Assembly: GCF_035083965.1 (NCBI RefSeq)
Contig: NC_089740.1
Location: 9,794,596-9,858,595, forward strand
Direction of reading: 5' to 3'
From: Branchiostoma lanceolatum
Lineage: Eukaryota > Chordata > Leptocardii > Amphioxiformes > Branchiostomatidae
DNA: 64,000 nt
A program made the translations under genes and the position numbers. Positions 5,404-61,351 of this stretch are shown here, piece by piece. The notes beneath the pieces were generated by a model that worked only from the letters and a program-made list of their open reading frames with translations, was not told the DNA's origin and did not search any database. The stretch's first letter is position 1. The number at the start of each line of letters is the position of its first letter.

Positions 5404-6958
5404 AGTCAAAGCGCCGCCTTGTAACTTTGACCGGTATTGCAAGTCACAGAAGAATAACTTGTTGAGTGTGTGTGTTGGATATGGCTGGGGGTCGGGTGAA
5501 GTGGTAACTTTTGTCCTGTGGTGAATGCAAGACGTTTGCGCTAGCTTGAGAATGTATACAATGCTATACATTTATCTGTAAACTTTTTTTGGGATGTGAC
5601 CTGTATAATTGTTTTATTTGAATTCATCACAATGTGAAAGGGAAGGCAAAACATGTGTATATAACATTTACACGCTGCCCTCCCATGGCCACAAACAATA
5701 GGTATTCATTTCTTCATTGTTTAGTCATCAGGACTGACTATTTGTAAAAGATTTCAGGTCGTTGGGTAGTCCTGGTTGTATGTATTCATGATCATTTATA
5801 TATCTCTGAACAAATAATCAAATCAACATTTGATGTGTTTTTTTCAAAGAGTAATACCATGTACGTTCTTGTGATGTCTGCATTTCAATGGTCGCAGGCC
5901 ATATAATTTGTACATAACGCAATCTGAATTCCCTGATATGATCATGAGACAATAGTAACGTAATGTGGTAATACAGAACTTCACTACATGTAGTTGTACT
6001 GTACACCACGAAGTACTAGTACACTGTATCTCCATGCGACCACTCACTAGAGCAATCTAGCGGAATGTCAACAAACTGCAGTATAGCATCGATCGAGTTC
6101 TAACATACGTACGTACGCGCGTACTTGCCCCTCGCGCAAATGTGTAAAATGTACTAAATGCATGGACTGAGCACAATGACTATATCTATGACAAGTATCA
6201 TCAACCAGTTAATAGTAACAAATAACAGAATAAGGTATCAACAGTGCCGCGAGTATTTGTTTTACTGCGAAGCCCCCCCCCCCCCCCCCTCCCACGTTCA
6301 CACTTTCAAATCTTGCTCTCTGGCAAAAGAATAGAAGTTTCGAGTGCCCCACTCAGCTATACATCGACTTACCTCTATCTTCTCTTTGTGTGACCTGGAA
6401 AATAATAAACAGCGACGTCTGGTTACAGAATCTCGCCAAAAGGGTGTCAACAGCCGGGCTAGCTTGCTTCCTGGCTTTGTTCTTTTCAGTTTCCCGCCAA
6501 AACCCTCACGTAGGTCATACGAATAGTTCATATACTTATAAGGGGTGTCAAATATGTCTTAACAAAGCGGACTTTTTGAATTTCTGATATTTCATACATT
6601 AAAGGCTATTAATATAACAAAATATTTTGTAAAATATCAGTTTTTTTTATAATTTGAGTAAAATAACATGTTTAATGAAAAATATTTTCCACCTTTTAAA
6701 CCAAGTGGTCTCAGCGAAAGGTTAAATTCCACGCGACCATGGAAGGGTATGATGTAGGTTGTGGAAGTTATTCTTTTTGCTATTAGAGCATCATTTGACT
6801 CCAAACAATATTCATACTGGACTGTACATTTATGAATAAAATTCCTTATAATTGATATCTAAATTATATGATACTCTGTTAAAGTTTTGCATGTGAAACA
6901 ACCGTTTCACGATACAGAAAACCTTTAAAAGAGCCACAACGCACATTGTCAATCCAAG
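5404..6958. promoter_or_regulatory. Divergent CKS / HYPK intergenic region
   Basis: CKS runs left and HYPK runs right from this 1.55-kb gap. TTTCCCGCC at 6490-6498 matches an E2F site. On the minus strand TAGAG|GTAAGT, with the exon edge at 6373, is a perfect splice donor; a pyrimidine-rich acceptor, ACCCCCAG, lies about 80 bp upstream of the CKS start. Together they suggest a noncoding first CKS exon around 6373-6490. A run of about 18 C lies near 6272-6290. Transcription starts are inferred, not seen. Confidence 0.4.
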
Positions 6959-6964
6959 ATGGCG
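6955..6964 (+). promoter_or_regulatory. YY1-like CAAGATGGCG overlapping the HYPK start codon
   Basis: The HYPK ATG is embedded in CAAGATGGCG, the YY1 consensus often found at the 5' end of housekeeping transcripts. If functional it would place the transcription start a few tens of bases upstream. Confidence 0.4.
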
Positions 6965-7886
6965 ACGTCGAAGCCGACACAAAACGAGCACGATCACGAA
7001 TTGGACGGAGAGGAGGAAAATGTCCAGCCGGACAAGAAGGAGAAGAAGAAGAAACAGGATTCAGAAGCCGCCGCTGATCTAGAGAAGGTTACTGACTACG
7101 CAGAGGAGAAGGAAATTTCCACAGAGAGCATCCAAAATGTAAGACGTGCCATGTGTTTGCCCCCCTCCCCATGCATGTTTCATGATCACGTAATTTTTTA
7201 TAGATCTAGAAGCATACATATAATATACTACAAAGCCATTCCGGCGCAACGCTTTGAACGTAACTTAGTTGTACCAAAGTTAAGAAATATTATCCAGACT
7301 TTCTGTACAAATTGAATACCGTTCTAAAAATAAGATATCGAATGACTCTCCTTTTTTACAGGCTATGAGTTTAGTGAACCAGAAAACGTCAGAAGAAAGA
7401 AGCAAAAAAGCAAGCAGGTGGGAATGATTTAATATTTAAACTGTAAATCTTGAAAAATATTTGCCGTAGTTTTATTTTAGCAGTGGTCTCTTCACCAACA
7501 TTCATGACATAGCAAATATGCATCTCCAATGTCTTACTACTGTACTACAGAATTTTTTAACCATGAACAAAAAACACTGGGAAAAAACCGTTTCGCTTTC
7601 TACGACATAGTTAAAATCCTACAGAAATGGATGAATTCATGTTGCAGTTGGTAACTTAGAAGGTAACCTGCGGGATGTGTCCATATTTGGGTCTTGATTG
7701 GTCCTCGGGAATTCCCTTATATAGACTTATCAATTTAAGTAATTTTCTTCTTCTTTCCCACAGAGAAAGAGAACTAGCCAAGGTTGTGATCCGAAAAGAG
7801 GATGTTGAATTGATTGTGAGTAAAACCTTATTCTGGTACATCTGTAAAAAAAACAAGCAAGTGTGTGTGTGTGTGTGAGCATGTGT

Positions 7887-7946
<60 letters not shown>

Positions 7947-8628
7947 TGACCAACATTTCTAACATTTGTGTATGTGTGTGTCAATATGTGTGCCTGTGTA
8001 TTAATATTATCATCACCCCATCTCAGTTCACACTGAGGCCAGTCATCATTGTTCCCTACATTATCTTAGAATCTGAAGGTTCTGGGTTCAAATCCCAAGC
8101 TGGCCCCAATGTTTTGCCCTTTGGAAAGGCTCTTAACACATATTTCTTTAGACTCAGGTGAAAATGAGCACCTAGCTTTGGTTAGGGCCGTCTTCCTGCA
8201 TGGGGCGTTAAGCCAATCAAGCATGGCAAAAATCTCACAACACTTATAGAAAAGAGTAGGACTCCATCACACTGTGACTGGGATCAAACCCTACTGCCTG
8301 GTCTTACATAGCTTGTACGCCTAAAGTAAAGGCATTGTACGTATCGAAACAGACAAACTAAGGCTAAAAAGTCCTAAACGGGAACTATGCGGTCCTGGCT
8401 GTCTCTCTGACAGATGAATGTGATGCAAAAGATCAGTAGAGGATTGTTCTGATTTCAAAATATACATGTATCTAAAACAATGACAGTTGTTCAGTATGCT
8501 AACTTTATTGTCTGATTTGATTTGATTGACAGATGACAGAGTTGGAGGTGACAAAGCTGGTTGCAGAGCGTACGTTAAGAGAACACCAGGGAGACATCGT
8601 TAAGGCTCTCATCTCTCTCACCAACTAA
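6959..8628 (+). CDS. HYPK: Huntingtin-interacting protein K (HYPK)
   Basis: Ribosome-associated partner and regulator of the NatA N-terminal acetyltransferase complex (NAA15/NAA10), also described as an anti-aggregation chaperone. Exons: 6959-7138, 7362-7417, 7764-7815, 8533-8628; junctions are GT-AG and phases fit, giving 127 aa (human about 121-129). The N-terminus is acidic and lysine-rich (KKEKKKK at 27-33). The conserved core LEKVTDYAEEKEI lies at 41-53, then AMSLVNQKTSEERSK. ERELAKVVIRKEDVELI from exon 3 continues into MTELEV. The C-terminal UBA-like helices end REHQGDIVKALISLTN, as in vertebrate HYPK. Intron 3 carries a (TG)n microsatellite. A candidate polyadenylation signal AATAAA is at 9350. 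Confidence 0.96.
7480..7610. repeat. Dispersed repeat fragment in HYPK intron 2
   Basis: The segment containing ACTACTGTACTACAGAATT and AAAACACTGG is shared, diverged, with about 40180-40240 in HDHD2 intron 5. This marks it as a dispersed non-coding repeat of the same family. Confidence 0.45.
7859..7946. repeat. (TG)n microsatellite in HYPK intron 3
   Basis: A nearly pure TG dinucleotide run, interrupted once by GAGCATGTGTTGTA, lies 45 bp after exon 3. It creates spurious Cys/Val and His/Thr open frames. Confidence 0.95.
8020..8215. mobile_element. tRNA-derived SINE-like fragment
   Basis: A B-box-like GGGTTCAAATCCC is followed by a body containing CCCTTTGGAAAGGCTCTTAA and CAGGTGAAAATGAGCACCTA. 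This resembles the conserved body of tRNA-derived SINEs seen in many deuterostomes and molluscs. No clear A box or target-site duplication was identified. Confidence 0.5.
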
Positions 8629-10469
8629 GAACAACACTGTCTTGTCTACATACAGTGATATCTAGGCCAGGGCTGTCTCCAGCTTGACATTTTCCGTCCA
8701 ACTCACTGTTTGGGAGCCGATGTTTTGTATTTTTCGTTGTTAAATTCATAATTTTAAGCTTAAAAGGATACATTTTCATCGTTCAGATTTCAGGACGGAC
8801 AGGGTGAAATTTGTTTCGTCCTATCAAGCAAATTTCGGTCCCAGGATGGAGAAACGGGTTTTGGAGACAACCCTGATCTAGTCTCTACTAGACTGACTAC
8901 ACCGGCCAATAGGGAGAATAATTTGCCTGGAGAGTTTCGCTATCAAAGCGGTTGACCGGCCATGCCTCTCTGGAGGAGGGAATGTTACCTTAACATGGAC
9001 TGACTCTCCTGGCCAATTATTCCCTTTTTTGCCGAATTTTAAGATCTGTACCCTGCTAGGGGCTAAGTGATATCACACACCAGACATTCATGTATTGTAC
9101 CAGCAATGTTGTTAAAAGCATTTTCACTCAATTTTCATTTTCACCAGTTATGATACAAGTTTTGTGACATAGTTGACAATAAGTCGATGAAGGTTAGACA
9201 TCCAGGTGATAACTGGTACCTTGAGTTAACGCCAAGCATTATGGGAACCCTAACAGAGGGACTTACCTACTTTTGTCAAGGGGGTGGGCATGTTTGTACC
9301 TCGATATACATGTACGAGTACATTAGGTCTTATCACTTGGTCTGTAACAAATAAAAATATCCAGATTCCCATATTCTATTATGTGGTCTAATCCAAAGTC
9401 CTATTTAGAATTCATCAGAAACTTGAGTCAAATGTTGCATGACATACATGCATGGAAACAACAACAGCAGTGTCAAAGATAATACATGTATGGTTATTAG
9501 AATATAAGGAAGTGAGGACAAAGGAACACATAAGTAAAATTCAACGTCCAATAGTGTATGATTTTTCTAGACCTTTCGATGAAAATCAAGGCTCAATATT
9601 ATTTTGTGTATTCAGAATATGTCATATGTTTGAAATGTCTGCACATCAACACATGAATATCTTTCACCCTGGGCTGTATTTTGATATCTTGATTTAACCG
9701 CAATAAAAGCATTGGAACAGTAAGACTAGATTCTTGTATCTGACAAGGTTTTGTTTTACACTTCAAGATTAATTCATGTTTTAAATGCCAGTCAAACAAA
9801 TCCAATGCGCCAACCCCAATCATTTGCTATCAATTGAAATCTGGAGTCTAAAATAGTTGAGAAAGGTTGTAAAAAAATGTGTTTCATTGCGCCTTTCTAC
9901 TTGTCTCTCCTTTATCAGTTAATGTTGATATTAATATTATTGGTTTGTGTTATCATTGAAAGGAGAGATAGTTGTTACTACTGATGTATTTAAAAAAATA
10001 ATTGTTCCGTCTGCAAAAGTGGAGATGAAAAGATTTGAGGTACACATCCGGGCACCTACAGCAGTTAGTAATGGAACTCTCATCTTTGTTTTCTTTTTCT
10101 CCTCTTGAAATCAAATTCTTTGATCACACGTGGAGATGTTAATCAAGAATGAGGATATCAAAGAATCTACAGCCTCAATCTGTAGTCAACCATTTTCGCA
10201 TCTAGGCTCCTGGTGGAGGATGATATCATTATTTGGTCAACTACAGCAGAAAAAAACATTGTACATGTGTACACATTATTCACATCAAAATTACTACTTG
10301 AAAATTTAAGACGAAGAATATATTTTCAGTTTTTGTTTTTCCCCCTTTGAATGAGTAATTGATATGCAGGTGTGTTACGCCTAAGGGCGATGATAATAAA
10401 AGATTTGGGTCATCGCAAACCTTAATTGCTGATTAAGCGACAGTACAGTTTCTCTTTATTTATCTAAAT
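8629..10469. other. Intergenic stretch with a diverged copy of the LRR upstream unit
   Basis: No gene is seen. From about 9990 to 10340 the sequence (CTACAGCAGTTAGTAATGG, CACACGTGGAGATGTTAATC, AATCTACAGCCTCA) resembles the starts of the two LRR units at about 13760 and 17205. It is probably a third, decayed copy without its gene. Confidence 0.5.
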
Positions 10470-10917
10470 CACCCCGACCAATCGAATCACGTAAATCGCA
10501 TTGAAACTCAGATTCGTATCAGCCATTTCCCCACAAATCACTTTCTAACCTGCGTTAACGACTACATCTGACCAAACAAACTCGCCAGTGAGATGGTGGA
10601 AGTTGTCAGCTTCCAAAAGACGTTTTCAGATTGACAATTTTGGCACTTTGGAAGTAATTGAATCCGCCCGCGATTTAACGTTTAGAGAAAAGTAGTAGAA
10701 ACTAGAAGTTAAATCGCGGGTGGACTCAATCACTTCCAAAGTGCCAAAATTGTCAATCTGAAAACGTCTTTTGGAAGCTGACACCTTCCACCATCTCACT
10801 GGCGAGTTTGTTTGGTCAGATGTAATCGTTAACGCAAGTTAGAAAGCGATTTGTCGGGAAATGGCTAATACGAATCTGAGTTTCAATGCGATTCACGTGA
10901 TTCGATTGTTCGGGGTG
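10470..10917. mobile_element. 448-bp fold-back element
   Basis: Two arms of about 210 bp (10470-10679 and 10708-10917) are near-perfect inverted copies around a 28-bp spacer. The outer ends are CACCCCGACCAATCGAATC and its complement; inner ends are CCCGCGATTTAAC and GTTAAATCGCGGG. The few arm mismatches suggest recent insertion or arm homogenisation. No coding capacity and no obvious target-site duplication. Confidence 0.85.
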
Positions 10918-11139
10918 TAAATGGAAAAACCGGTACATCCACATTTTTAGATTGTGTGAGTGTGGGGCGTGTGTAGGGGTATTCTGTCCACAGATTGAGA
11001 TTTACAGGTTGACCCATTGACAGCTCCTCTACAGGTATGATTTTCACATAACTTTTATTTCTTATTCGACTAACCTCCCAGATAAGTAGGTCCACATACT
11101 ATGTTATGTACTAGACAATCCCTAGAACACTGAATCGTC

Positions 11140-11382
11140 TGTTTTAGCTCCCTTGTCCGTATTTGTTAACTACTATTTGTCCATGTTGCTGGAGAAACTA
11201 TGAAAGTACACATAGTGTTCAGTATCATACCCTCCCTTTTGAGTAATTTCTGATTGAATTGTTTGTTTTAGCTCTCATTTGTTTGCCGTGAGTGATACAT
11301 CCATAGTGCTAATGAAACAACCGCCTACGACTAGTTCAGTGATTAGTGCCTCCCCAATCAATATAAACGTCTGAAATGTCTG
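11140..11382 (+). repeat. Two 121-bp diverged tandem units upstream of the peptide gene
   Basis: GTTTTAGCTC occurs near 11142 and 11264, each followed by TCCAT(G/A)(T/G)TGCT and later GTTCAGT..CCTCCC. The peptide gene's own CATTTCAGCTCAACACC start region falls one period later. The segment looks like repeated duplication of the 5' end of the gene. Confidence 0.45.
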
Positions 11383-11394
11383 CATTTCAGCTCA
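11359..11394 (+). promoter_or_regulatory. Candidate TATA / initiator of the peptide gene, or an acceptor
   Basis: AATATAAAC at 11360-11368 lies about 30 bp before TTTCAGCTC at 11386-11394, giving a TATA-Inr arrangement with a leader of about 10 nt. The same TTTCAG could be a splice acceptor of an untranslated first exon. CTGAAATG and CATTTCAG (11371-11390) form a perfect 8-bp hairpin across it. Confidence 0.35.
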
Positions 11395-11399
11395 ACACC

Positions 11400-12038
11400 A
11401 TGATGAAAAAGACGCTGGTGTTGCTTCTTGTTGTTTTGGTCATTTCTTCTGAGATGATGACTGTCGACAGCTTCTTCAAAGTCGGCCGAAACCTCGGTGA
11501 GGAAAAAAATACTTTTTATCCCCTCAGGAAACATGTAGAAAATGGATGAGTAAACTGATATTCTTTAGAATTAAGGGCGGAGGGGTCGCTCGATCTCCTG
11601 TAATAAGTAGTACATGTACTTTTCTTACTTGGCTGGTAAACGCAATCTGGTTACAGAGACTCTAAGTTATACAAGAAACGATAAGCCATCGGCAACTTGA
11701 CCTTGTCTTCACGAGACCCCTGAAAAACCATCAGTAGAAATTGGCCTTAATAGAGAAAGTATCTTATCAGGACACTTGGTCGGTAATATGAGTGCCGACC
11801 TGTTCCCCCTATTTTGGCGCATTTCTTACTGGTCTTCATTTGGTGAACAGGTCAGATAGAATCGAAACTAACATTTCGGTTGAAATCTTACCAACATTGT
11901 TTGACGTCAGTCCGTAGTGCAGGGTCCACCGACCGTGACGTGGCGCCCCTCAAGGCGCTGCTGGCTCGCCGCCAAGCCGAGGCCGGACGTCGTAAGAGGG
12001 CTGCGGATGGGGACAATGGACCGGAACGAGAGAAATGA
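11400..12038 (+). CDS. Secreted cationic peptide precursor, candidate host-defence or regulatory peptide
   Basis: I do not recognise a family. Exons are 11400-11496 and 11911-12038; donor CTCG|GTGAGG and acceptor GACGTCAG|TCC join in phase 1 to give 74 aa. Residues 1-24 form a clear signal peptide (MMKKTLVLLLVVLVIS, likely cut after TVDS). The released chain starts FFKVGRNLVRSAG and is strongly basic, about +8 for residues 25-62. It ends at a furin-type RRKR (59-62), after which an acidic tail begins AADGDNG. Signal, basic peptide, acidic pro-part is the order of precursors such as styelins, clavanins and piscidins. A neuropeptide is the alternative. There is no C-terminal amidation glycine and no cysteine. 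AATAAA follows at 12344. Splice choice rests on phase and signals only. Confidence 0.65.
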
Positions 12039-13272
12039 AAGATGGAATTTTTTGACCAGCCTTTGTTACCCCAGCTTCTCCTATTGGGTCAGGTAGCCCT
12101 CACTCTTAGTGAGCAGTTGAGCTAGTCTCATTATGTTTCTGACCTAGGGACCACTGTTAAAGTTATATATGTATGTCGTAACCTCGGAGTGGCCTTCGCG
12201 TCACAGCTTGAAGTGACCTTCGGGTCTTGTTACGTGGTGATCATTTAATAATAATAAAATTTAAAGGAAAAAATTAAGTACATACATGTATTTTCATAAT
12301 GGCGTGAAACTTCCCGTTGTTGCTGATGTCTTTTTTTAAACTAAATAAAGCTTGACAACATAATCATTGTAAGGGAACGCTGAAATGTATATGCAGTGCA
12401 CACGGAAACCAGCCCCATTAAAAAAGTGTTCCATAGGTTTAATTGTGCTTTCTATCGCAGTGTGCGAGGTAACTAAATCTGACCCCGTAAAACTATCCCG
12501 GGTGCACTAATTGACCTGGGCGGATGTTGAACACGCAAGGTACCGAGGAAATCCCTTGAGGTTCACGATGTAATGGTTACCAAGTTACGTGTGCGTTTGA
12601 TACATTACTTTCATTCTAACATTAAACCTCTGCGATTGAGGTAGGACCAAAATATGTCACTTTCAAAATACATGTTTATGAATCGTCGGGGCAATAATGC
12701 ACTGTTGATGCTGTTTTCGTTATATCTGTCTTTACAGGCTAGGCTGCGATGATCATGACATCACTACACGTCTCCCTACGTGACGTTATTAATTGACGGC
12801 TGTCAAGCTTCGCTTTTGTAGAAGCCATATATACATATAGAGGCTTACAACACTTTGTCGTTCTTTTAACAGACAACATTATACTTACTTAATAGCTTCT
12901 TTTTTTCTTTTTGGTCTTAGATGATATGATTCAGCAAAGCTGATCACTAAGGTTAGGACTACCAAACTAATCATAGGGAAACAGCTGTGGATTTTCAAAA
13001 CTTGAACGAATCTGATATTACCATTAGGTTTGCAGAAGTTGATGTGCACTCAAAACGACAAAGAACAATAACAGGGCTTCTGGTTTGGATTCTATTCAAT
13101 TAGAAACTATGCAAGCAGGTGGTGCAAACATGGCAAAGCAAATTTCATAAATTTTGCATGGAACAGTTGATGACTTTCTCCAAAAATGGAAGAATTTTCA
13201 CCAGTTGCATAATCTGTACTGTACAATGGCTAAAATGGCAAAAACAGCTATCGTGTGGCTTCCCTCACGATC
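12039..13272. other. Intergenic, no gene seen
   Basis: The 3'UTR of the peptide gene probably ends near the AATAAA at 12344-12349. Beyond that I see no exon or recognisable repeat until the reverse-transcriptase remnant. Confidence 0.5.
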
Positions 13273-13390
13273 ATGAGTCACATTGGCAAAATGTACGAAC
13301 GCAGTCTAGAACGAAGACTACGATCTCTCGTGGAGCTTTCCGAAGACCAATATGGCTTCCAATCTGCCCGGGGAACAACAGAGCAAATGT
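13273..13390 (+). pseudogene. Non-LTR retrotransposon reverse transcriptase remnant
   Basis: The frame from 13273 reads MSHIGKMYERSLERRLR, then EDQYGFQSARGTTEQ, before a stop at about 13391. GK.YERxLERRLR...QYGF..GR.TT is the conserved early palm region of LINE reverse transcriptases (CR1/Jockey type). Only about 40 codons survive; no endonuclease or later RT motif is seen nearby. Confidence 0.75.
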
Positions 13391-14347
13391 CATGACGTCA
13401 GCCCTCAAGGCGTACGTTTCATCACGAAGTGCAACTAGCAATATAATCGTCTGTCTGTTCTGGCAAACATTGCTCACTGGTCTTCACATGTAACATACTA
13501 ATCCCAACTACACAATGCTTTGGGCGTAGCATTGCATTAGCATGGGATATTGAACCCTTTGGCGCTGTATCTAATAAAAAGTTTTCTGTCGCTTCATGAC
13601 TCTAGGTTTTGTTTTTTCCTTCCTGGTGTTCAATTCACAAGAAAACTTCGTTACTTATATCCTCAAGTATACGCTGGCATGATTTTACAACGGTGTTTCG
13701 ATTAAATTGATGACTCTGCTTTGAACCCAAGTAGTCGTATTTAAGTTGAAGCAAATAATTTTTTCTCACTAACTAAAAGTTCCGTTTGCAAAAGTGTCAG
13801 TAAAAAGTTTTCGAGTGTACATCCGGGCCCTTTAAGCCCACGTAGATCTGCTAACCAATGAGAGAAAATTTTCTGTGATGCCGACACGTACAGCAGTTAG
13901 TAATTTCATCTTCTGTCCATTCTAAGAATAATTATTTTTTGTCCTTTTCAAATTGAATTCTTTTTTTCACACGTGGAGATGTCAGTCAAGATATAATAGA
14001 ATCTACAGCCTCAGGGTATCCAACCCGAAGTCGGCGCAGAAATGATTCATTGTTTTTGTCAAATTCAGTCCTGTTGTGTACTCTATCGATTTATTAGCAT
14101 CAAGATTACAGCTTAAAACAATCTGTTCCATGTAATTGTACACCTATAGCTTTTTCGATTGCGGTTCTTGCCGAAAGGATGACATTCAAAACTACTCGTG
14201 CACATTGATGGGGCACGGCACTTTCCTACCCATAGAATTTTCAATACATCGGCTCTAAATACCACCACGAACTGCAATCAGCAATGCAATTTTCTGTTTT
14301 CTCTGGCAGATATTGTTTACTCGTCTTCAAATCACACATTGCCTTAA

Positions 14348-14893: not shown

Positions 14894-15744
14894 TTAAGCG
14901 TCAACACTGGATACTGAATCAGTCTGCCGCTATGGACTATAGTGAAGTCTACAACAGCTTCATGACTAGTCCTTGCAAGTTTCCCTTTTCTCTGTTTCCG
15001 TCCTGTGTTCAAGAAGGTTCCGTTACTAGTTCGGCAACGATCATTGAAACAAAAAGATTAACAGAGCATGGTACAGAATTCTTTTCTTGTCCGCATCATC
15101 AAGAAATTCAAGTGGTAAAATTAGTTCATTTCATCTTTGGGGGGTAAAGTGCTACTTTGATTAAAATCACACTCAACTTGACAGCGTTTTCACCTTGTTA
15201 TTGTCCGTTCCTTTGTATGTGTTTTATAACAGAAACAAACAAAAAGATATCGCGCTCCTAGAGACCCAGCCAACTAACCACGGCTGATCATCAGCCTCTC
15301 ACAATGAAAGATTGTGAAACACACTCTAGTGCATTCATAAAGTGCATATTCTCCCTTAAGTTGACACGAAAAGTTTGTCTTTACGTCTACTTTGAGTAGC
15401 AATTTTTGTCGGATCTTACGCAACTTCCTCTTTGTTCATATTTTGGCTTATATAACCTTCGAGATTCGTAGAAAAAACTATTGAATATTCTGATAAGGCA
15501 CGTTATCTACCAGACTTATTTGGGAAGTGTTTCATTCTGCGGTGCCGGTGGAGACGGGAACTTCGAGACTGACATTCACACCGCCCGCTGACAACATTGC
15601 ATTGTCCTGTTTTTCTTGGGGAAAGCATCGAAGGTGAACTTTTTTGTCGTCTTTAGCTGTAGTTTGCAGACAAGAAAGTAGTCAGTGTTTCTTCTCCTTC
15701 TAAAGTCTTGCAGTCAAGTACGCATTTGTTAAAAAAAATTGAAA

Positions 15745-16713
15745 ATGAAGACCATTATGTTGTCTTTATATGAAGGACTGCAGTCACAAAAACGAAACAA
15801 AAACAGTTGGCTGTGGTTCACTATTCTTTGTTTTGGGATTGCCTTTATGGGAGGCTTCGCTTACCCACAAGGCTGCAAAACCGCAAGCTATGGTATGTCG
15901 ATTCCACGGGTGAGGCTGAGTTGTCCGAGATTAAAGTTGACAACATTCCCTAAAAGCGTACCGGCTGATGTAACCGACCTAGATGCCTCCTACAACGACA
16001 TCAACAGCCTGACAGACGTCCCAGTACTGAAACATCTTTCTTCACTCCGTTTGAACTTTAACCACATCGAGACCGTTGACTGGATATCCCTCCGCAACTT
16101 TCCAAATCTAGAATCGCTCTCTTTGATAAAAAATCAAATCACGCGCGTCAGTTTGGATGCTGCTGTGAAGCATTTGCCCAAACTGTCGCACGTGCGTCTG
16201 TCGATTAACAAGCTTACATCTTTCTCCTTACACGAGTTGGGATATCCGTTCGTAAATGTCACAACGCTTCACAACAACCCCTTTCACTGTGACTGTACAA
16301 TGCAATGGTTGATGCTCAAACTCAAATGTCTGCTAGAACCGGGTGAATCATCTGGTAGAGCCCGTTGTAAAGCGTGCAAGGCCTGCTTTCTGTCCCACTA
16401 TCCGGAAGTAGCCATAGTCTCCGGTACTTTCAAATGCGCCAGTCCTAACCACCTAAACGGAATGTCCTTGTCAAGAGCCTCACAACATATGACGGGGTGT
16501 GGTATTGAAAAACTGACATCGAGTACACCAACAGGGTCTTCAACAGATGTCCACCGTATGACGACGCCATTCCAGAGCACCAACAGTACGAGCGTGGCAG
16601 CCTCAGTAGCTCCTTCGCCACCTACCGACCTGCTTCTGTATTCCCGATGCAAGCACGGCGCGGATGCGAGTGTTTTCCGATATTCGTTTGTCTCAAGCGG
16701 TCCCATCGATTAA
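15745..16713 (+). CDS. Secreted leucine-rich-repeat protein, paralogue 1
   Basis: Intronless CDS of 322 aa. A basic N-terminus precedes a hydrophobic signal segment at about 22-38 (WLWFTILCFGIAFMGG), then an LRRNT-like region with C44 and C60. Roughly four LRRs follow (LSSLRLNFNHIETV, LESLSLIKNQITRV, LSHVRLSINKLTSF). The LRRCT starts NPFHCDCTMQWL at 178-189 and ends near CGIEKL. A Ser/Thr/Pro stalk (258-296) leads to a conserved C-terminal block with RCKHGADASVFRY. No transmembrane segment or obvious GPI signal, so probably secreted. The layout resembles lamprey VLRs and lancelet VLR-like proteins, but I see no cassettes or recombination signals. An internal ATG at 15757 (MLSLYEG) matches the start of paralogue 2 and may be the real start. 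Confidence 0.85.
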   Translation: MKTIMLSLYEGLQSQKRNKNSWLWFTILCFGIAFMGGFAYPQGCKTASYGMSIPRVRLSCPRLKLTTFPKSVPADVTDLDASYNDINSLTDVPVLKHLSSLRLNFNHIETVDWISLRNFPNLESLSLIKNQITRVSLDAAVKHLPKLSHVRLSINKLTSFSLHELGYPFVNVTTLHNNPFHCDCTMQWLMLKLKCLLEPGESSGRARCKACKACFLSHYPEVAIVSGTFKCASPNHLNGMSLSRASQHMTGCGIEKLTSSTPTGSSTDVHRMTTPFQSTNSTSVAASVAPSPPTDLLLYSRCKHGADASVFRYSFVSSGPID

Positions 16714-20934: not shown

Positions 20935-22016
20935 CGTACGGAGTACCGCAAAATATTGGTGTAGTGCGTGCGGCCTTGCGGTGGGTGTAGCTTGCCAGAG
21001 CCATCATAAGGTTGGCATGACAGGCAATAAGTACTTCGGTGAATTCGTAGATCGTCAGCACTCCAAAAAGTACAGCATCTTTAACAATTTCGACACGAAT
21101 GCGTGTGCACAGCAAGCAGTAGTGGTCTGCAGAGCCGCCATTTTGAAGTGCTCACGAAAGGCCTTCCCATCAGCCTGTGCGCAGAGGTAGCCAATAAATG
21201 CGTTCCCCATAGCTATGGTGAATGAAGTTCCTTCAGAGGACGGAAGGACGTCCTTCTGCACCATAGCTATGCACTTATTGCTTCCCCTATAACACCATTA
21301 CTATCGAGAATTGGAAATGTATCGGGTGGTGCAAAAATTATTTCATTTCAACTTTGGATGGTTAAGTGTTACCTTGACTAAAATCACACTCAACTTGACA
21401 GCGTTGTTACAATGTTCTTGTCTGTTCCTTTGTATGTGTTTTATAACAGAAAAAAGGGCAACATCGCGCTCCTAGAGGCTCAGTCAACTATCCACGGGTG
21501 ATCATCAGCCTCTCACACAACGAAAGATTGTGTAAGCCAGTCTAGTGCATTCATAAAGTGCATGTCCTCCATGAAAATGGTACACAAACTTGTCTTTCTA
21601 AAGACAAATATTATTACTTCTACTATGAAAAGTAATTTTCGTCGGATCTTATTCCTACTTATTAATATGTTTGGCTTATGATCTTTCGAGATTCGTAGAA
21701 AAACCTATGAATATTCTGATAACGCGCGTTATCTACCAGACTTATTTGGGAAGTGTTTCATTTTGCGGAGCCGGTGGAGACAGGAGCTTCGAGACTGACA
21801 TTCACACCGCCCGCTGACAACATCGTCCGGTTTTTCTTGGGGACAGCATCGAAGGTGAACTTTTCCTGTCGTCTTTAGCTTACAGACAAGAAAGTACTCA
21901 GTGGTTCTTCGCCTTAAAGTCCTTGCAGTCAGGTCAGCACACAAGGCAATCTTTAACTACGTTGATTTTCCAGTAAGTATTTGGTTCTAAAGATTTAAAA
22001 CGAAAGGAAGACTGTC

Positions 22017-23012
22017 ATGTTGTCAGTATATGAAGGACTGCAGTCACTAAAACGAAGCAAAAGTACTCGGCTGTGGTTCACTATTGTCCTTTGTTTGGGC
22101 GTTGCCTCTTCTGGAGGATTCCCTTACCCACAAGGCTGCATAGTTTCAAACAAAACGAGCATATTGTTTCCATCGGTGAAGTTGAGTTGTCTAAGATTGA
22201 AGTTGACAACATTCCCCGAAAACGTACCGGCTGATGTGACCCGTGTGGAGGCTTCCTCCAACAGCATCAAGAACTTGACAGACGTTCCAAAACTAAAACA
22301 TCTCTCTTCACTGGACTTGAACTTTAATCAAATAGAGACCATTAACTGGGGGTCCCTCTGCAATTTTCCAAATCTAGAATTCCTCCATTTGATGAACAAC
22401 CGAATCACGCGCGTCAGATTAGATGCTGTCGTGAAACATTTGCCCAAACTGTCGCTCGTAGATCTGTCAAATAACAGACTGGAGACTGTCTCCTTACACG
22501 TGTTGGGATATCCGTCTCTGCATGCCACAACTCTACACAGGAACCCTTTTAACTGTGACTGTACAATGCTGTGGTTGATGGTCAAACTCAAATGTCTGCA
22601 AGGGGAATTGGAGCTACATGTACGTCCTGCTAGTACATCCCGTTGTGGCTTAAGTAAAGCCCATTGTATATTTGATATAGCCCGTTGTGAATTCTATGAG
22701 GCTTGCTTTTTGTCTTACGTTCCTTCCTTAAACAAGGATGCTTTTAAATGCGCCAGTCCTGACCACCTAAAAGGAATGTCCTTGTCGGAAGTCTCACAAA
22801 ATCTGACGGGATGTGGAATTGAAAAACTGGCTTCGACAACAACAACAAAGACCTATGGTCTGCAGCCAAAACAGGATCGAGGAGATGGAAGCGAAGCAGC
22901 CTTGGCTGTTTTTTCGTCACCTAGCGACCCGCCACTGAAGTACCAGTGCACTCACGGCGCGGATGCGAGTGTTTACCGATACGCTTTTCTCTCAAGCGGC
23001 CCCAACCATTGA
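22017..23012 (+). CDS. Secreted leucine-rich-repeat protein, paralogue 2
   Basis: Intronless CDS of 331 aa, paralogue of the gene at 15745. Same order: basic N-terminus, signal segment (LWFTIVLCLGVASSGG, 19-34), LRRNT with C41 and C58, about four LRRs (LSSLDLNFNQIETI, LEFLHLMNNRITRV, LSLVDLSNNRLETV), LRRCT from NPFNCDCTMLWL (176-187) to CGIEKL, Ser/Thr stalk, and the conserved tail with QCTHGADASVYRY. The LRRCT is longer than in paralogue 1 because of an extra Cys-bearing module, RCGLSKAHC then RCEFYEAC (209-230). The start is the ATG at 22017; the upstream ATG used in paralogue 1 is mutated to AGG here. No transmembrane segment, so likely secreted. Confidence 0.87.
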   Translation: MLSVYEGLQSLKRSKSTRLWFTIVLCLGVASSGGFPYPQGCIVSNKTSILFPSVKLSCLRLKLTTFPENVPADVTRVEASSNSIKNLTDVPKLKHLSSLDLNFNQIETINWGSLCNFPNLEFLHLMNNRITRVRLDAVVKHLPKLSLVDLSNNRLETVSLHVLGYPSLHATTLHRNPFNCDCTMLWLMVKLKCLQGELELHVRPASTSRCGLSKAHCIFDIARCEFYEACFLSYVPSLNKDAFKCASPDHLKGMSLSEVSQNLTGCGIEKLASTTTTKTYGLQPKQDRGDGSEAALAVFSSPSDPPLKYQCTHGADASVYRYAFLSSGPNH

Positions 23013-28560: not shown

Positions 28561-28952
28561 TGACAAGCAAGGCGGAAAAGCACCTTCTGGACAGTCAAAC
28601 AGAATTTTGGGCGATTTTCTAAAATATCTAATTTCTAGCCCAAATCTATTCACTTTATTGGCTCTCTAAAATTTCAAGCCATAATTGAAGCAAGAGATCA
28701 AAATAAAGACACTGTGCTATGAGGAAAAATTCGACTCTGACTTCATTTCCCATCCTGTGTGAACCAAGCGGTCGAGCCTTAGAAGGAGGACAAAGCATGA
28801 CACTTTTTCGTATACCAATATACAGACCCCCCGACTCTGTTTTCATGTTGTTTTCCAGTTAAGATTTCTTTGGGGAGAGGATTTCGAGATTCGAGACATT
28901 AAGTTGTGGATTTACAGATGAGTTTCCTGTTCTATTTAGGTAGCAGGACATC

Positions 28953-31250
28953 ATGGGAAGAAAGCTGCGGCACATGCTGATTTTCCTTCTCATCGTCGTG
29001 AAGGCGCCTAACATGCCAGACGCCAAGGATCCCAAAAGCTTAAGTTGCAAGAGAGCTAGCCGGTGTAGACCATCCGGCAACTACAATCAGGACCTCACCA
29101 GTGTCCCTCGGAACCTGTCAACATCAATCACTGAGTTGCATTTGGGATGTCATCTTATAACAGCTGTGAATAGGTCTGTACTGCTAAGGTATAGGAACTT
29201 GATTCAGCTGAAGTTAGAGAGAAATTGCATTAGTATTGTTGATTGTTTCCCAGGTCTACCCCGGCTACAAAGGCTGCACCTCTCCTTCAACCACATAACA
29301 ATGATTCAGCCTGGTACATTTGCAAATCTACACCGGCTAAAACAGCTGGACCTGTCCTATAACAAGATAACAGAGATCCATGCAGGTACACTTGCAAATC
29401 TACCCCGGCTGGAAATGTTGTGCCTGAATTCCAACCTGCTAACAATGATTCAGCCTGGTACATTTGCCAACCTACCCCGGCTACATAGGTTACTCCTGTC
29501 CTCCAACCAGATAATTATGATTCAGCCTGGTTCATTTGGAAATCTACCCAGTCTCAAAACGTTGGCCCTGAGTCCAAACAAAATAACAAAGGTTCCATCA
29601 GGTACATTTGCAAGTCTATCCCAGCTCAAATCATTGGTCCTGAGGTACAACCTGATAACAATGATTCAACCTGGTTTATTCACAGACCTAATCTCTCTCA
29701 AATCCTTGTACATTTCCTATAACCGGATAACAATGATTCAGCCTGGTACACTTGCAAATCTACCCCGACTACAAGAGTTGGACCTGTCCACCAACCAGAT
29801 AAGAATGATTCAGCCTCGTACATTTGAAAAATTACCCGGGCTAGAACTAAAAGCACTGTATCTGGCCTACAACCAGATAACAAAGATTGAGCCTGGTACA
29901 TTTGCAAATATGCCCAAACTCCAATATTTGGATATTCGGGCAAACAGGATTTCTGCCATTCCCCCTTCAACTTATGGCTTGTTTACATCTCTCCCTACTA
30001 TAAAACTTATCGGGAACCCCTGGCTGTGTGACTGTAGGATGAGTCCATTCAGGCTGAATATGACCAAGTTGCCTTCATTGAAAGTCCAGATAATATGTGC
30101 CAAACCAACCAAATTACAGGGACAGAACCTAAGAAATGTCAATCCTGAAGCAATGATATGTGAAGAACCAACAATATCAACACTGGCTGTTGATATCCAA
30201 ACATCATTCACTTCATTGGCAGTGTCAAAATCTTCTTCATTTTGCAACACAGAAAGCAATTCTATCCCAAAATATCCTGTAGGCTCCACTTCATCGACTA
30301 CACTTCCCCATGTCGGCCCTTTTGAAAGTGCTAACAACTGCTGCAATGACTTTATCACCTCTCGCTATCATTGGTACTTCAAAACCAACGCTGGCTATAC
30401 CGCACGCTCTGCAAGCAAAACAAGAGCAACATCCACTCCACTCCTTGAAATAACTTCAGACAAACCAGAAAGCAGCAGTTCCCATGAATCTTCTCCCAAT
30501 CTCTCCCTACCCAGTCTCATTGGCTCTATCTGCATTTCATTATTTGGCGTTGTCTTGATTGCCACCAGCACTTTTACAATATGGTATAAGACGAGGAATA
30601 ATTACAGGCATCCTCCTTTAGGGCTAAATCCCAATGCTGTTGGTAACAACACAGACCCAGCGGTTTCTGTGATAAACGGTGGACATGATCACCAGTATGA
30701 AGATATTGATAGCCATCATGATCAGACAGGACAGGGCCTGTACCAAATGCAAGCTGGCATTCAATCTCTAAAAGCTGGAAATCTATCACGTAACAAAGTG
30801 CTAGCCGCATTGAAGCCAAATCCTTTGTACGCTGGAGTGGGCACACCATTAACGGCCCCAACATCTACCACTGGTCATGACCAGGCAGGGCCAGGCCAGT
30901 CTCAGGTCATCACTGAGTCTTACACAAACATCACAACTGCTGTTGTAACTAGTGGCCATGATCGTCAGTGTGAAGATATTCACAATCAACATGAGCAAAC
31001 AGGGCAGGGCAACACTGAATCCTGCACTAGCACAACACCAGCTACAACAGTCAGTGGTCATGATCAGATAGAGTATCAGGCCGTCACCGAATCCCCGGAC
31101 AAGAAAAATCCATTATATAAAACAGACCAGTCTGCCTCAAACCTGAATTCTCTGTACAAAGTTGTGGGAAAGTATGAGGACATCAACAGATCCAACACAA
31201 ACACCACAGCTGCTGCCAGTGATAATGATCAGGCAGGGCAGGGGCAATAA
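28953..31250 (+). CDS. Single-pass leucine-rich-repeat receptor with repetitive cytoplasmic tail
   Basis: Intronless CDS of 765 aa. Signal peptide 1-24 (MLIFLLIVV core), Cys-bearing LRRNT-like region 32-52, about 12 LRRs of 24 residues at 61-347 (consensus xxLxLSxNxITMIQPGTFANLPRL), LRRCT 355-403 (NPWLCDC start), Ser/Thr-rich juxtamembrane region to 520, transmembrane helix 522-544 and a 220-residue tail. Several LRRs are nearly identical in DNA, a sign of recent internal duplication. The tail repeats GHD..(Y/C)EDI..(H/E)QTGQG and carries YEDI (582, 741) and NPLY (623, 719). NPxY motifs bind PTB domains or adaptors for endocytosis; tyrosines may be phosphorylated. Likely a cell-surface recognition receptor; the ligand is unknown. 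The ATG follows TTTAG, so a 5'UTR intron is possible. Confidence 0.88.
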   Translation: MGRKLRHMLIFLLIVVKAPNMPDAKDPKSLSCKRASRCRPSGNYNQDLTSVPRNLSTSITELHLGCHLITAVNRSVLLRYRNLIQLKLERNCISIVDCFPGLPRLQRLHLSFNHITMIQPGTFANLHRLKQLDLSYNKITEIHAGTLANLPRLEMLCLNSNLLTMIQPGTFANLPRLHRLLLSSNQIIMIQPGSFGNLPSLKTLALSPNKITKVPSGTFASLSQLKSLVLRYNLITMIQPGLFTDLISLKSLYISYNRITMIQPGTLANLPRLQELDLSTNQIRMIQPRTFEKLPGLELKALYLAYNQITKIEPGTFANMPKLQYLDIRANRISAIPPSTYGLFTSLPTIKLIGNPWLCDCRMSPFRLNMTKLPSLKVQIICAKPTKLQGQNLRNVNPEAMICEEPTISTLAVDIQTSFTSLAVSKSSSFCNTESNSIPKYPVGSTSSTTLPHVGPFESANNCCNDFITSRYHWYFKTNAGYTARSASKTRATSTPLLEITSDKPESSSSHESSPNLSLPSLIGSICISLFGVVLIATSTFTIWYKTRNNYRHPPLGLNPNAVGNNTDPAVSVINGGHDHQYEDIDSHHDQTGQGLYQMQAGIQSLKAGNLSRNKVLAALKPNPLYAGVGTPLTAPTSTTGHDQAGPGQSQVITESYTNITTAVVTSGHDRQCEDIHNQHEQTGQGNTESCTSTTPATTVSGHDQIEYQAVTESPDKKNPLYKTDQSASNLNSLYKVVGKYEDINRSNTNTTAAASDNDQAGQGQ

Positions 31251-33021: not shown

Positions 33022-34348
33022 TCATAGTCCTTTATTAACATCCAGGAACTCTCCTGACCAGTACTGGTCACTAAGGAAATTTTGAATAGATCTGGTTTTA
33101 ACCAGTCTCTTTGAACATAGTGCTTTTGAATTAGAATTATCTTTTCCGCATTTTGGTGACATTGACATTCTGTTTTGTGAAGGAGTTGTAGAAGTTGTAG
33201 TTTTCTGACTCTGAGTGTTTTTTCTTGGAGAAGAAGATGATGAGTCTGACATGTCAGATGGTTGTCTCCTCTTCAGTTCCTCCTCCCACCTGTACATTGG
33301 GATAAGAGAAAAAAGTTATTTGTCACATCTTTTGTTTCATTGAGAAATAAAACTATTATTCCTGTTAGAAAGAGGGCCATTAAGTATATTAACTTAGTCA
33401 ACTGAGGGCTCTTTTGCCCAAAGTTGTTATAACAATGCATTTTTCATTTGCTTGGTCCTATCAAATCCCAGCTTAGCAGCTTGGCTGTGTGTGTGTGTGT
33501 GTGTGTGTGTATGTTTGTGTGTGTCATTGAATGTGCTTGTGTGTATGTGCGTGTGTGTATGTACTTTGTGTATGTGTGAGTATGTGTGTGTGCACATGTG
33601 TGTACATGATTGATGTATACTTGCCATATCAATTTTCTTGAATAAAGTTAACAGAAAGAGAACCAAAAATAACTACTAACCTGTGTTGTACCAGTTTATA
33701 CAAGTCCATGGTGGCCCTGGCATCCTCTACTGACGAATGCCCCCTTTGCTGAATGGTACGACCCAGAAGACTCCTTGAAAGTCTCTTCAAGGAGACAGGA
33801 CTTCTCGCTGGAAACCCTCCGTGAAGATTTAGAGCGGGATACCTGGACGTGTCCCGAGTCATCTCGCGTGGGTGACTGAATCCCAACGCTTTGAAATCGT
33901 TGTAGACGGCATGTCCGATCACAATTTTGTTCTGTAAAATTTTCCTCACTTCTTCCTGGGCTTGTGTAAAGGGGATAGCTTGAGCCATGTGCTGAGGACG
34001 TATACCACTGTACGGGGTCCGATAGTCGGTTATCGGCTGCTGTGGCTTAATGTATTCGTCGTACACAATCTGGCCGCTGTGACTGATGATACTGCAGCGA
34101 GCGAGAGCGCTGATGGAACCTCGAGGACCGCAACCAACCATCTCGCAGTCCATTGCAAGGTAATGGTCATTGTTGTTGCTTTTCTTTTGGCGTTCAGTAG
34201 GGGGCCTCACTGCTTGGTTGGTACCTGAGCCATGGCCAGTTATGCCATTTAGGAGTTTCAGTTGCTTTTGGGGAGTTTGTTCATGACCAAACGGGCACTG
34301 CCGTTTCTTTGGTGTGAAGGACACTGACTGAGCGGCTTTAGAAGGCAT
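33022..34348 (-). CDS. AEN: AEN/ISG20-like DEDDh 3'-5' exonuclease
   Basis: Nuclease of the ISG20 group; vertebrate AEN is a nuclear or nucleolar enzyme of the p53 apoptosis response that acts on DNA and RNA. Minus-strand exons 34348-33681 and 33289-33022 join at CACAG|GTTAGT and TACAG|GTGG in phase 2, giving 311 aa (human AEN 325). Exo I YLAMDCEMVG is at 63-72 (D67, E69), Exo II GHAVYNDFKAL at 145-155 (D151), Exo III GHSSVEDARATMDLY at 203-217 (H204, D209). PITDYRTPYSGI (105-116) is typical of the group. The low-complexity C-terminus keeps DQYW (297-300), present as DQYWPDD in vertebrate AEN; this favours AEN over ISG20 or ISG20L2. The basic N-terminus may localise it to the nucleus. Confidence 0.93.
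33484..33602. repeat. (TG)n microsatellite in the AEN intron
   Basis: Interrupted TG/TATG dinucleotide run inside the 391-bp intron, less than 100 bp from the 5' splice site. Spurious His/Thr frames arise from it. Confidence 0.95.
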
Positions 34349-36060
34349 TTCTGATAGTGGTACTATTCAGACTGAAAAAAGAAATACATTTTGTTACAAA
34401 GATTAGAATACAATGCAAATGCATTGCATAACTGTTAGATACATGTATGGTGATTTTGCTTCATCTTTGCCATTTAATATTCATGAAAAAAAAAAAAACA
34501 CTCAACACAATAAAAATGGAATTTTTGGAATACTATCATTAACCGACTCAATATTTTACAGAACATGTCTACCCTTAGTTAGTACCTTAGTACTTCAAGT
34601 AAAACTCACATACAGTAGATACACTTGGATATAACACTTGGATACACCAAGGAGGTTTATAATATATAGACAATACACCACCAAATACTTTCAAAATCTA
34701 ACATTTCTTGTAATTCTCACAATCTGTGCAGCTTGTAACTTCCCAGTATTTTTCGCTATACGTATGGTTTAAAAGTCAAAGAGTCACAAATCTCGTAAAG
34801 CTCTATTTGTGACACAAGATTGCGCAACACCTGACACCATGAGAACAGTGGGGAGGGGGGCGGATTCTGCTGAGTACACTTAGTTCAAGTTATGGAGGAC
34901 GGGGTAAAATTAGCCTGATATGGTGGTGGGTATCAAAAGAAGAGAAAGAGAGATCTGGCATAGTTTGTGGACAGCTAAAATCAACTGAAACACGTGGCAA
35001 AATCTATACGGAAAAATTCGGGACATGCAAGTAGAGAAATTTTCCGACATGCCAAGCTACAAAATGTAGTCACAGTTACTCACCTAAAACTGCCTAAAAA
35101 ACTATTCTAATACCTTAAAATAGAGATATCAGTAGCCCACGTATCAACATACCTTGCTTGTAACTTCAAGCAATGTGGATTCTTCAATAAGTGAAAGATT
35201 AGCCCCAAAAGCCGGTAAAATTCCTCTGTTCGATACCGGCACTTGTACACACTTGTGTCTCCAAGGCCCCCTACCGGAGAAATAGCGTAATGGTGACCTA
35301 CGCTATATTTCACAAAATGCCTAAATATATGACGAACAACGAGGCACTATTTTGGATAAACTGTTACAATAATTCCGTAAAATCATACAATTACTTTTCT
35401 TAGAAATAGCAAATACATATCCTTTTAATTTCAGAAAATATTTCTGGCAGTCTTTCTGCCAGAACAGCAATAAATAAACAGGCAGAATTTACTTTCTACA
35501 AAGATAGCTAACAAAAGAAGTGAGGAGGGAAGAGGGAGACAGAACACAGTGAAATGATATTTCAAAGGAAACAAAATATTTTATCGTCAGTACTTAGTTC
35601 ATTGTCATTTCTAAAATATTTATTTTGCTTTTTTTTGACAATTCCGTATCCCTAACTTCAAACTTTGGATCGTTTTCAAAAGATAATAACATAGCTTTCT
35701 TGTTCAGCTGCCCTCTTTAAACTTTGACCTAAAATGACCTCTTGTATTTTCGCGCGACATTTGGGAAGGAGGCAGATCGCTGTCAAGTTGTTTAGACTCG
35801 TACCTCTACTTAACTGAGTAGAAACTGTTCATGTTAAGCAAAGCGTTACGTTTTATGTTTGCATCATGGCCATCCAATTCTCCATGGCACATAATTTCTA
35901 GCAAGGAGGTTGGGATAATGACATGTTTTCAAAAGTTGCATGAAGATCCACTGTCGTATAAAATCAGTCCAACGTTATAACAACTGTCATTTTATTCTAT
36001 GCTTCGTGTGGGGATTTGATAACATATATATGTATTAGAAATCATATAATCATGTAAGTC
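34349..36060. promoter_or_regulatory. Divergent AEN / HDHD2 intergenic region
   Basis: AEN and HDHD2 point away from each other across about 2.07 kb. I see no further exon with confidence and no clear TATA box. The first HDHD2 coding exon is preceded by TGTGTCCCAG, so its promoter and 5'UTR may lie here. Confidence 0.4.
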
Positions 36061-59963: not shown

Positions 59964-61351
59964 TCATGCCTGTACAATTTCATTATACGCCGGGGGTGGG
60001 GCTGATGACTCGGAAGTCGTCCCTTCTAGTTCTGACGGCAGGGGCATGTCTTCGCTCTCGGGGCTCGTCGTAATAGTCGAGGGGGACGGCTTCAAAAGGG
60101 CCCGTGACTGTTCGGCGCGTGCCTGCCGGTCTTTGTTGCCGAGTCTATTCGCAGACAACGTTTCGTACGTCCGCTTGGCTTTAACAGGGTTGGGAGACCT
60201 GGAAGGGAAAGGGAGACGGAGGGAAGTTATCAATGTCATTTTTACGCCTGGAGCCTTTTTTTAAGCAGACCAAGATTACAGCCTGACCTCCTGCTGAGGA
60301 TATTCGCAGGGCGCTATCTGCAGTTTGCGAAACTAATTATACCGGAAATCATTCTGCAATGCCGCGTCGGATGGACGGAGTGGCTGGAATACTAAGCGAT
60401 GTACTTCATTCCATCTTAACGACCAGGAGACCACAGCAGTTGATTTGGTTTAACGATCGGTTCTAGCCCCACGGCCAGAGACATTGGTGATTGCCAAATA
60501 ACGCTTCCTTGAACGCCTTGTTCCACAACGAAATTTGAATGATTTCTGCGTGGGTTGAATTAAAAGCTGGCTCGCAAATTATCGGCGACAATTAGCTGTC
60601 CCTGAATTGGCTGGCTCCCGTCGAGCGCTTGGGTCCGCATGGACCGATCCCGTTGTTGCGCAATAATGTGTTTAACACAACGGATGCGTAGCGAGTTGTT
60701 CCTCTTGTCTTAACATGGTTCTCATCGTAAGGATTCCTCTAGACCTGACCACTATCTACCTTTGTTTCTGGTCTATTAAACACCTTCATTGGTATTCTAC
60801 AGACAGCAGTTCCCGGAAATGAAATCTACAGAGCTTTTCTAAGCCGCACTTCTAGTATTTACTGAACGCTGAGCTGGCTTATGTTACTTTCAATTCCCTA
60901 AAGGATGATAAAAAACTCTTTCTTACCTTCCCTCTTTTTCTTCTTCTTCTTTTCTCTTCCTGTTTCTTCTGGCCACGATGTACACTTTGAGAAGCCACAC
61001 CCCTATCATGACCAGCACGAAAAGTCCGAAGGAGAACAGAACTGCGCCCAGAGCCCTGTCCTCCAGCTTAAGCCCGCGTCCTAAACCCAGGATGATACAA
61101 ATCACCCCAACTGCCGTGAACACCATAAGGTGGACCTTCTTCTCGTAAGGGAACCACCAAGATTTGTTTTCGGGCTGTTGTGCTCTGGCAGACCGCTCGC
61201 GTAAAGTGTCCCGCCTGCGCTTCTCCTTCTCGGCGTCAGACTTGGGGTCCTTCTTGTCCTTCCCCTTCCCATCCTTGTCTCTGCCCGACCGCGGGGACCC
61301 TCCCTGGCGCGTGGTCTGGGGGATCTTGATGTGGTAGTAGTACCCCGGCAT
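59964..61351 (-). CDS. Two-transmembrane protein with basic cytosolic arm and PPxY tail
   Basis: I do not recognise the family. Minus-strand exons 61351-60927 and 60198-59964 join at GGAAG|GTAAG and TTCCAG|GTC in phase 2, giving 219 aa. Residues 1-72 are hydrophilic, rich in Lys, Arg and Asp. Two hydrophobic segments lie at 73-91 (HLMVFTAVGVICIILGL) and 100-126 (ALGAVLFSFGLFVLVMIGVW), with a short loop between them, so both ends should be cytosolic. A very charged stretch (ARRNRKRKEEEEKEG) follows at 127-141. The C-terminal tail is Ser/Pro-rich and ends with PPPAYNEIV (209-217), a PPxY site for WW-domain ligases such as NEDD4. Several small TMEM proteins share this layout (TMEM51 ends PPPQYDEV), but homology is not shown. 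The CpG-rich 5' region is consistent with a promoter. Confidence 0.8.

Follow-up and report, generated by a model that had tools for sequence, protein, structure and literature searches.

A candidate orphan secreted peptide precursor with a predicted Gly-RRKR processing site in the lancelet Branchiostoma lanceolatum

Precursors of starfish neuropeptides have been recognised by a signal peptide, monobasic or dibasic cleavage sites and, in some cases, a C-terminal glycine, as set out in the portion of PMC4772807 drawn on here. Linear cationic helical antimicrobial peptides have been sought with a screen for products of 50-100 residues that carry a signal peptide, have no cysteine in the remainder, and contain an 18-residue segment with hydrophobicity of 0-0.6, a moment of at least 0.1, and a charge of 3-10 (PMC7387483, in the sections used here). 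In the same sections of PMC7387483, the Ciona candidates are described as having no basic processing motifs, with possible cuts before acidic residues, and most possess an anionic helical pro-region, with a charge of -3 to -10 in 17 of 22, making this region usual and not universal. Here we describe a locus in a 64,000-nucleotide stretch of B. lanceolatum DNA (the window) that appears to encode a short secreted precursor. Our overall reading, to which we attach a probability of roughly 0.4, is that the product is an orphan amidated secreted signalling peptide.

The two-exon gene is very probably real, and its features are collected in Table 1. Two short in-phase exons had been proposed in an earlier sequence-only reading, and this is borne out, with translation from the ATG at 11400 through the 11496/11911 join yielding a precursor of 74 residues that runs in phase through both exons and ends in a stop. 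The donor of exon 1 (TCG/GTGAGG) has a score of 8.22, which ranks among the best 0.9% of the window's GT sites, and the 11911 acceptor, with 5.03, falls in the top 12%; a branch-point-like CTAAC lies at 11868, its A 39 nt upstream of the final base of the AG. The spliced gene for HYPK (huntingtin-interacting protein K), which lies upstream at 6929-8628 on the plus strand, provides an in-window standard for splice sites; composed of the ORF 6929-7315 and small exons up to 8628, it matches HYPK of PDB entry 6c95 with 116.5 bits, and has acceptors scoring 11.0, 9.1, and 4.1, with two of its three donors scoring 6.1 and 9.4. Since these scores are comparable, the donor and acceptor of the peptide gene are ordinary for real sites in this DNA.

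The ATG at 11400 is followed by five acceptors at or above the threshold (11771, 11851, 11911, 11923, and 12148), with 11771 and 12148 leading to unrelated ends, and 11851 (5.46), 11911 (5.03), and 11923 (5.11) all entering the frame of exon 2. The frame of the junction first proposed is thus retained, and the uniqueness of its acceptor is not. The form spliced to 11851 would gain 20 residues from AT-rich DNA (37% GC), including one Cys, and the form spliced to 11923 is without VRSA. As the rise in GC starts at 11911-11923, the two shorter forms are favoured over that from 11851. For the leader, two readings are equally possible. The TATAAA box, a motif expected in an 11-nt slot with a frequency of ~0.005 on the plus strand of the window, would put the transcription start near 11390 and give a very short leader; the candidate 5' UTR intron would use a donor scoring 8.39 (top 0.8% of GT sites) and an acceptor scoring 6.79 (top 3.6% of AG sites). 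The TATA box and the two AATAAA signals fit a short gene.

Table 1. Features of the candidate peptide gene and its predicted precursor (positions within the window)
Feature	Position	Strand	Remarks
Alternative leader reading: 5' UTR intron	11035-11390	+	donor CAG/GTATGA, acceptor ATTTCAG/C
TATAAA box	11362-11367	+	38 nt 5' of ATG
Coding exon 1	11400-11496	+	encodes MMKKTLVLLLVVLVISSEMMTVDSFFKVGRNL and first base of codon 33; ATG context ACCATGA
Predicted signal peptide	11400-11450 if cut after S17; to 11471 if cut after S24	+	matrix favours S17
Candidate mature chain F25-G58	11472-11987, interrupted by intron; from 11451 if starting at E18	+	
Intron	11497-11910	+	414 nt
Coding exon 2	11911-12038	+	stop TGA at 12036-12038
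G58, would-be amide donor	11985-11987	+	directly before RRKR
RRKR, furin/prohormone-convertase type site	11988-11999 (residues 59-62)	+	
C-terminal tail AADGDNGPEREK	12000-12035	+	12 residues, net -2
AATAAA poly(A) signals	12253-12258 and 12344-12349	+	

Signal cleavage was scored with a von Heijne-type weight matrix, together with the hydrophobic core. The signal peptide claimed earlier is borne out as a signal-like start, MMKKTLVLLLVVLVISS, which has a matrix score of 7.49 and a hydrophobic core. The accompanying claim that the chain starts at F25 is disfavoured by the matrix, with S24/F25 scoring -0.89 compared with 7.49 for S17/E18 (S16 scores 5.68); S17 lies shortly behind the hydrophobic core, and both cuts, after S17 and after S24, are therefore retained. 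The net charge of the chain is +4 for F25-G58 and +2 for E18-G58, or +3 and +1 respectively with the acceptor at 11923, and the charge of about +8 once given for the chain is reached only if RRKR, a furin/prohormone-convertase cleavage motif, is counted. RRKR and the length of the tail behind it are as first described, with the acidity of the tail overstated (four acidic and two basic residues).

Glycine directly ahead of such a site, a feature absent from the earlier reading, is the usual amidation signal, and here predicts a C-terminal amide. As a prediction, a gene for a secreted peptide is well supported. We propose that the two-exon gene (three exons with the possible 5' leader exon) would give rise to the 74-residue precursor, which the signal peptide would direct into the secretory pathway before its removal after S17 or S24. 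A cut after RRKR by furin or a prohormone convertase, followed by trimming of the basic residues, would expose G58, and peptidylglycine amidation would then produce one peptide of 33-40 residues ending in ...LKALLARRQAEA-NH2, with the 12-residue tail discarded. The product would be a secreted signalling peptide acting on a receptor, an orphan outside known families; no receptor-binding motif was recognised in the chain. The precursor holds one copy of the peptide and no Cys, and cleavage at an inner dibasic RR (residues 52-53) could make the product shorter still. Secretion and cleavage at RRKR are probable from the motifs, amidation is slightly favoured, and a role in signalling rather than defence is put forward tentatively.

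Each feature named for starfish neuropeptide precursors in the portion of PMC4772807 used here has a counterpart at this locus, with the signal peptide given by the weight matrix and hydrophobic core, the basic site by RRKR at the C-terminal side of the peptide (the signal cut bounding the N-terminal side), and the C-terminal glycine by G58. When the residues of exon 2 are permuted, a comparison made with the locus already in view, a furin-type site with a preceding Gly arises in 2.5% of permutations, such that the Gly ahead of RRKR carries modest weight, and a furin-type site with a tail of -2 or lower arises in 2.7%.

The peptide may instead serve in host defence, a reading we rank closely behind signalling, with a cationic amphipathic part around FFKVGRNLVRSAG entering microbial membranes and the tail silencing the precursor until RRKR is cut. 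The antimicrobial screen was applied with its thresholds for size, signal and Cys, hydrophobicity, moment, charge, and the anionic region, using a formula that, for three test peptides, reproduces hydrophobicity, moment, and charge as published. The 74-residue precursor, with its signal peptide and lack of Cys, falls within the size, signal, and Cys limits (the form from 11851 would have a Cys), and FFKVGRNLVRSAG, around the F25 start, is amphipathic, with a charge of +3 and a moment of 0.569 that 2.1% of its own shuffles reach, whereas DVAPLKALLARRQAEA is not, its moment being reached by 61% of its own shuffles. The 18-residue segments that pass start at residues 24, 43, and 44. The first of these, S24-R41, is available only with a signal cut at S17 or S16, and has a charge of +3 and a moment of 0.445 that is reached by 708 of 20,000 shuffles of E18-G58, rising to 1,699 of 20,000 when RRKR is counted into the E18 chain. 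The segments from 43 and 44 extend into RRKR, and their moments are low (0.211 and 0.111). In F25-G58 without RRKR no 18-residue segment passes, compared with 17,485 of 20,000 shuffles in which one does; with RRKR, two low-moment segments pass, as they do in ~97% of shuffles.

The outcome of the screen consequently hinges on the signal cut, with the cut after S17 giving an amphipathic passing segment but a net charge of only +2. C-terminal amides are also found in antimicrobial peptides, so that the predicted amide is compatible with host defence as well. The charge of at best +4 falls within the range of +1 to +5 given for piscidins in the part of PMC10215159 drawn on here, and the order of parts is that of ascidian precursors (PMC7387483) and nematode cecropins (PMC6780910), as far as the sections used of these sources describe them. 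However, the tail, at -2, is short of the -3 or lower of an anionic pro-region, and sibling copies are absent from the window, the best tblastn match beyond the gene's own two exons having an E value of 4.0. The alternative of an antimicrobial or a signalling peptide, as put forward at the outset, thus stands as the prediction of a secreted peptide, with its antimicrobial side weakened because the charge is lower (+4 or +2), the tail is weak (-2), and the N-terminus is doubtful. We place signalling slightly ahead of defence, as the processing features (Gly-RRKR, a single peptide, a weak tail) are a closer fit to peptide hormones than the charge and helix data are to membrane-active peptides.

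It is improbable that the gene model is itself wrong, with the exons belonging to different transcripts or exon 2 lying on the opposite strand. Both strands were scanned for an ATG, a hydrophobic signal, a donor, an acceptor, and a stop, with introns limited to 60-999 nt and product lengths to 50-100 residues, scoring donor, acceptor, signal matrix, and hydrophobic core from weight tables; for comparison, the window was shuffled 100 times block-wise in 2-kb blocks with dinucleotides kept. At the scores observed, this is the sole qualifying locus on either strand of the window (with three ATGs, at 11376, 11400, and 11403), and models at these scores occur in 0 of 100 shuffled windows. At loose thresholds, 13 start codons have a model in the real window against a mean of 2.48 in the shuffles, 87 of 100 of which hold at least one model; here the full order of signal, cationic part, furin site, and negative tail is confined to this locus, and 1 of 100 shuffles shows it. 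Both comparisons are post hoc, chosen with the locus already in view, and concern one window.

The coding likeness of exon 2 leaves its strand less clear. Exon 2 has a GC content of 66%, compared with ~40% in the intron and after the stop, and a CpG observed/expected ratio of 1.08 versus 0.69 window-wide, with 128-nt stretches of at least 66% GC found in three places in the 64 kb, exon 2 being one. Of 11,928 open frames of 42 codons in the rest of the window, 17, which form two clusters, reach its coding score of 12.8 over 41 codons, the comparison setting aside the five reference genes and exon 2's own region and resting on a small reference of 2,033 codons, drawn from five ORFs of which three are LRR. 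As two minus-strand frames of exon 2 score as well (12.7 and 10.2, with the plus frame at 9.8 if the stop is penalised or 12.8 if it is omitted), this score mostly reflects GC and leaves the strand unsettled. Furthermore, fair sites bound three candidate exons on the minus strand that end at 11892, and the competition among the plus-strand acceptors, two of them leading elsewhere, also speaks for a wrong model. Against this, exon 1 scores best in its own plus frame, albeit by a small margin (2.95 versus at most 2.4), and along the plus strand the stop is followed first by the drop in GC and then by the AATAAA signals.

Least probable of the readings weighed here is a small secreted protein acting intact or following different cleavages, with RRKR an accident of an Arg-rich exon, for although a furin-type motif appears in 22.6% of exon-2 residue permutations, 0.28% combine such a site with a Gly ahead of it and a tail charge of at most -2.

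Searches for relatives identified none, a result counted against the preferred reading of an amidated signalling peptide. Two forms of the precursor matched no Pfam family at E values up to 10, a search in which HMMER filters may conceal weak matches, and there were no matches among PDB sequences at E up to 10. The KVGRN string of the peptide resembles insect cecropins, and the cecropin and piscidin/pleurocidin families, which we take to be included in Pfam, gave no match at E up to 10. NCBIfam returned one match far below its cut-off, to the signal only (E 0.18, 11.5 bits versus 94 required). Pattern searches found 62 stretches in viral contigs and 593 in prokaryote genomes, of which none were confirmed in either set, and Rfam gave no matches over the entire window. 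All of these negatives carry little weight where an animal peptide is concerned. Strings of the peptide found no match in the literature text searched (figures and supplements lying outside the search), and such a peptide is not named in the lancelet, antimicrobial, or neuropeptide literature among the matches listed. A likeness of '...LLARRQ...' to CRF/DH44 was dropped, with no Pfam match and with the peptide presumably ending too early for that comparison. A short stretch at 9628-9653 that repeats the leader (81% over 26 nt) was considered as a duplicate and rejected, having behind it only a 14-codon ORF with, by eye, no signal.

Several repeats surround the gene. A foldback element approximately 480 nt upstream, with 216-nt arms at 10470-10685 and 10702-10917 that are 94% complementary and 16 nt apart, looks like a miniature inverted-repeat transposon. 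Diverged direct repeats lie on both sides of the gene, ~3.8 kb apart, at 9996-10062 and 13771-13837 (72% identity) and at 10089-10148 and 13932-13991 (70% identity), and are perhaps an old interspersed repeat. At 13234-13395 on the plus strand lies a reverse transcriptase-like remnant (Pfam RVT_1, E 0.006, below the cut-off). Further downstream, the adjoining block of secreted LRR genes reported earlier is present as three leucine-rich-repeat ORFs on the plus strand (15733-16713, 21999-23012, and 28944-31250), and is in doubt as to secretion for the last, which may be membrane-bound because a hydrophobic stretch is seen by eye about two thirds along it. The ORFs 15733-16713 and 21999-23012 are, by eye, close relatives, and the top structure matches of 28944-31250 are Toll-like receptor 9 and LRRC15 (among the best 60 of 410). 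On the minus strand, an ORF at 33629-34366 contains an RNase_T exonuclease domain (E 4.5e-15) and is presumably similar in kind to vertebrate AEN/ISG20-like nucleases, and a 170-residue ORF at 60923-61435, whose N-terminal part is basic and which has hydrophobic stretches, overlaps a GC-rich island and matches no Pfam family above its cut-off.

Provided that it is expressed and its product processed as proposed, the locus would add one more orphan secreted peptide to those of animal genomes and, in a lancelet, a candidate for a signalling or defence peptide of chordates that escapes searches by homology. The gene is of an ordinary, common kind, and its peptide sequence has no relatives in the libraries searched. 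We give the finding modest weight, since genes of this kind are common and the function is undecided between signalling and defence. Our placement of the product, as an orphan, lineage-restricted amidated lancelet peptide, hormone-like or host-defence, without a counterpart in known families, is correspondingly tentative.

Among the known systems compared, BjAMP1 of Branchiostoma japonicum also comes from a lancelet and is a short, secreted precursor carrying a dibasic site, but at 97 residues and with its anionic region first and its cationic peptide C-terminal it shows the reverse order (PMC4683396, in the part consulted). The ascidian peptides Ci-MAM, Ci-PAP, styelins, and clavanins resemble the precursor in their succession of signal, cationic segment, and C-terminal region, their lack of Cys, and their length of 50-100 residues, whereas the precursor described here has RRKR and a Gly- and Pro-containing tail of just -2; the tunicate parallel drawn previously accordingly extends to the order of the parts and not to RRKR, ascidian precursors being described without basic processing motifs in the sections of PMC7387483 used. 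Teleost piscidins share a mature peptide that can adjoin the signal, a similarly low positive charge and, if the leader intron is used, a separate 5' leader exon, but have four exons with the mature peptide spread across exons 2-4, according to the part of PMC10215159 drawn on, and match nothing here in Pfam. Nematode cecropins, as described in the section used of PMC6780910, show the same order of signal, mature peptide, and acidic pro-region, with the differences that the lancelet precursor has no Pfam match even at E 10 and that DVAPLKALLARRQAEA is not amphipathic. Compared with amidated single-copy neuropeptide and hormone precursors, the locus lacks a family motif and any match to Pfam or PDB sequences, and its peptide, which contains a dibasic RR, immediately adjoins the signal; the locus nevertheless resembles them in having a signal peptide, one peptide, a Gly with a basic site, and a tail that would be discarded.
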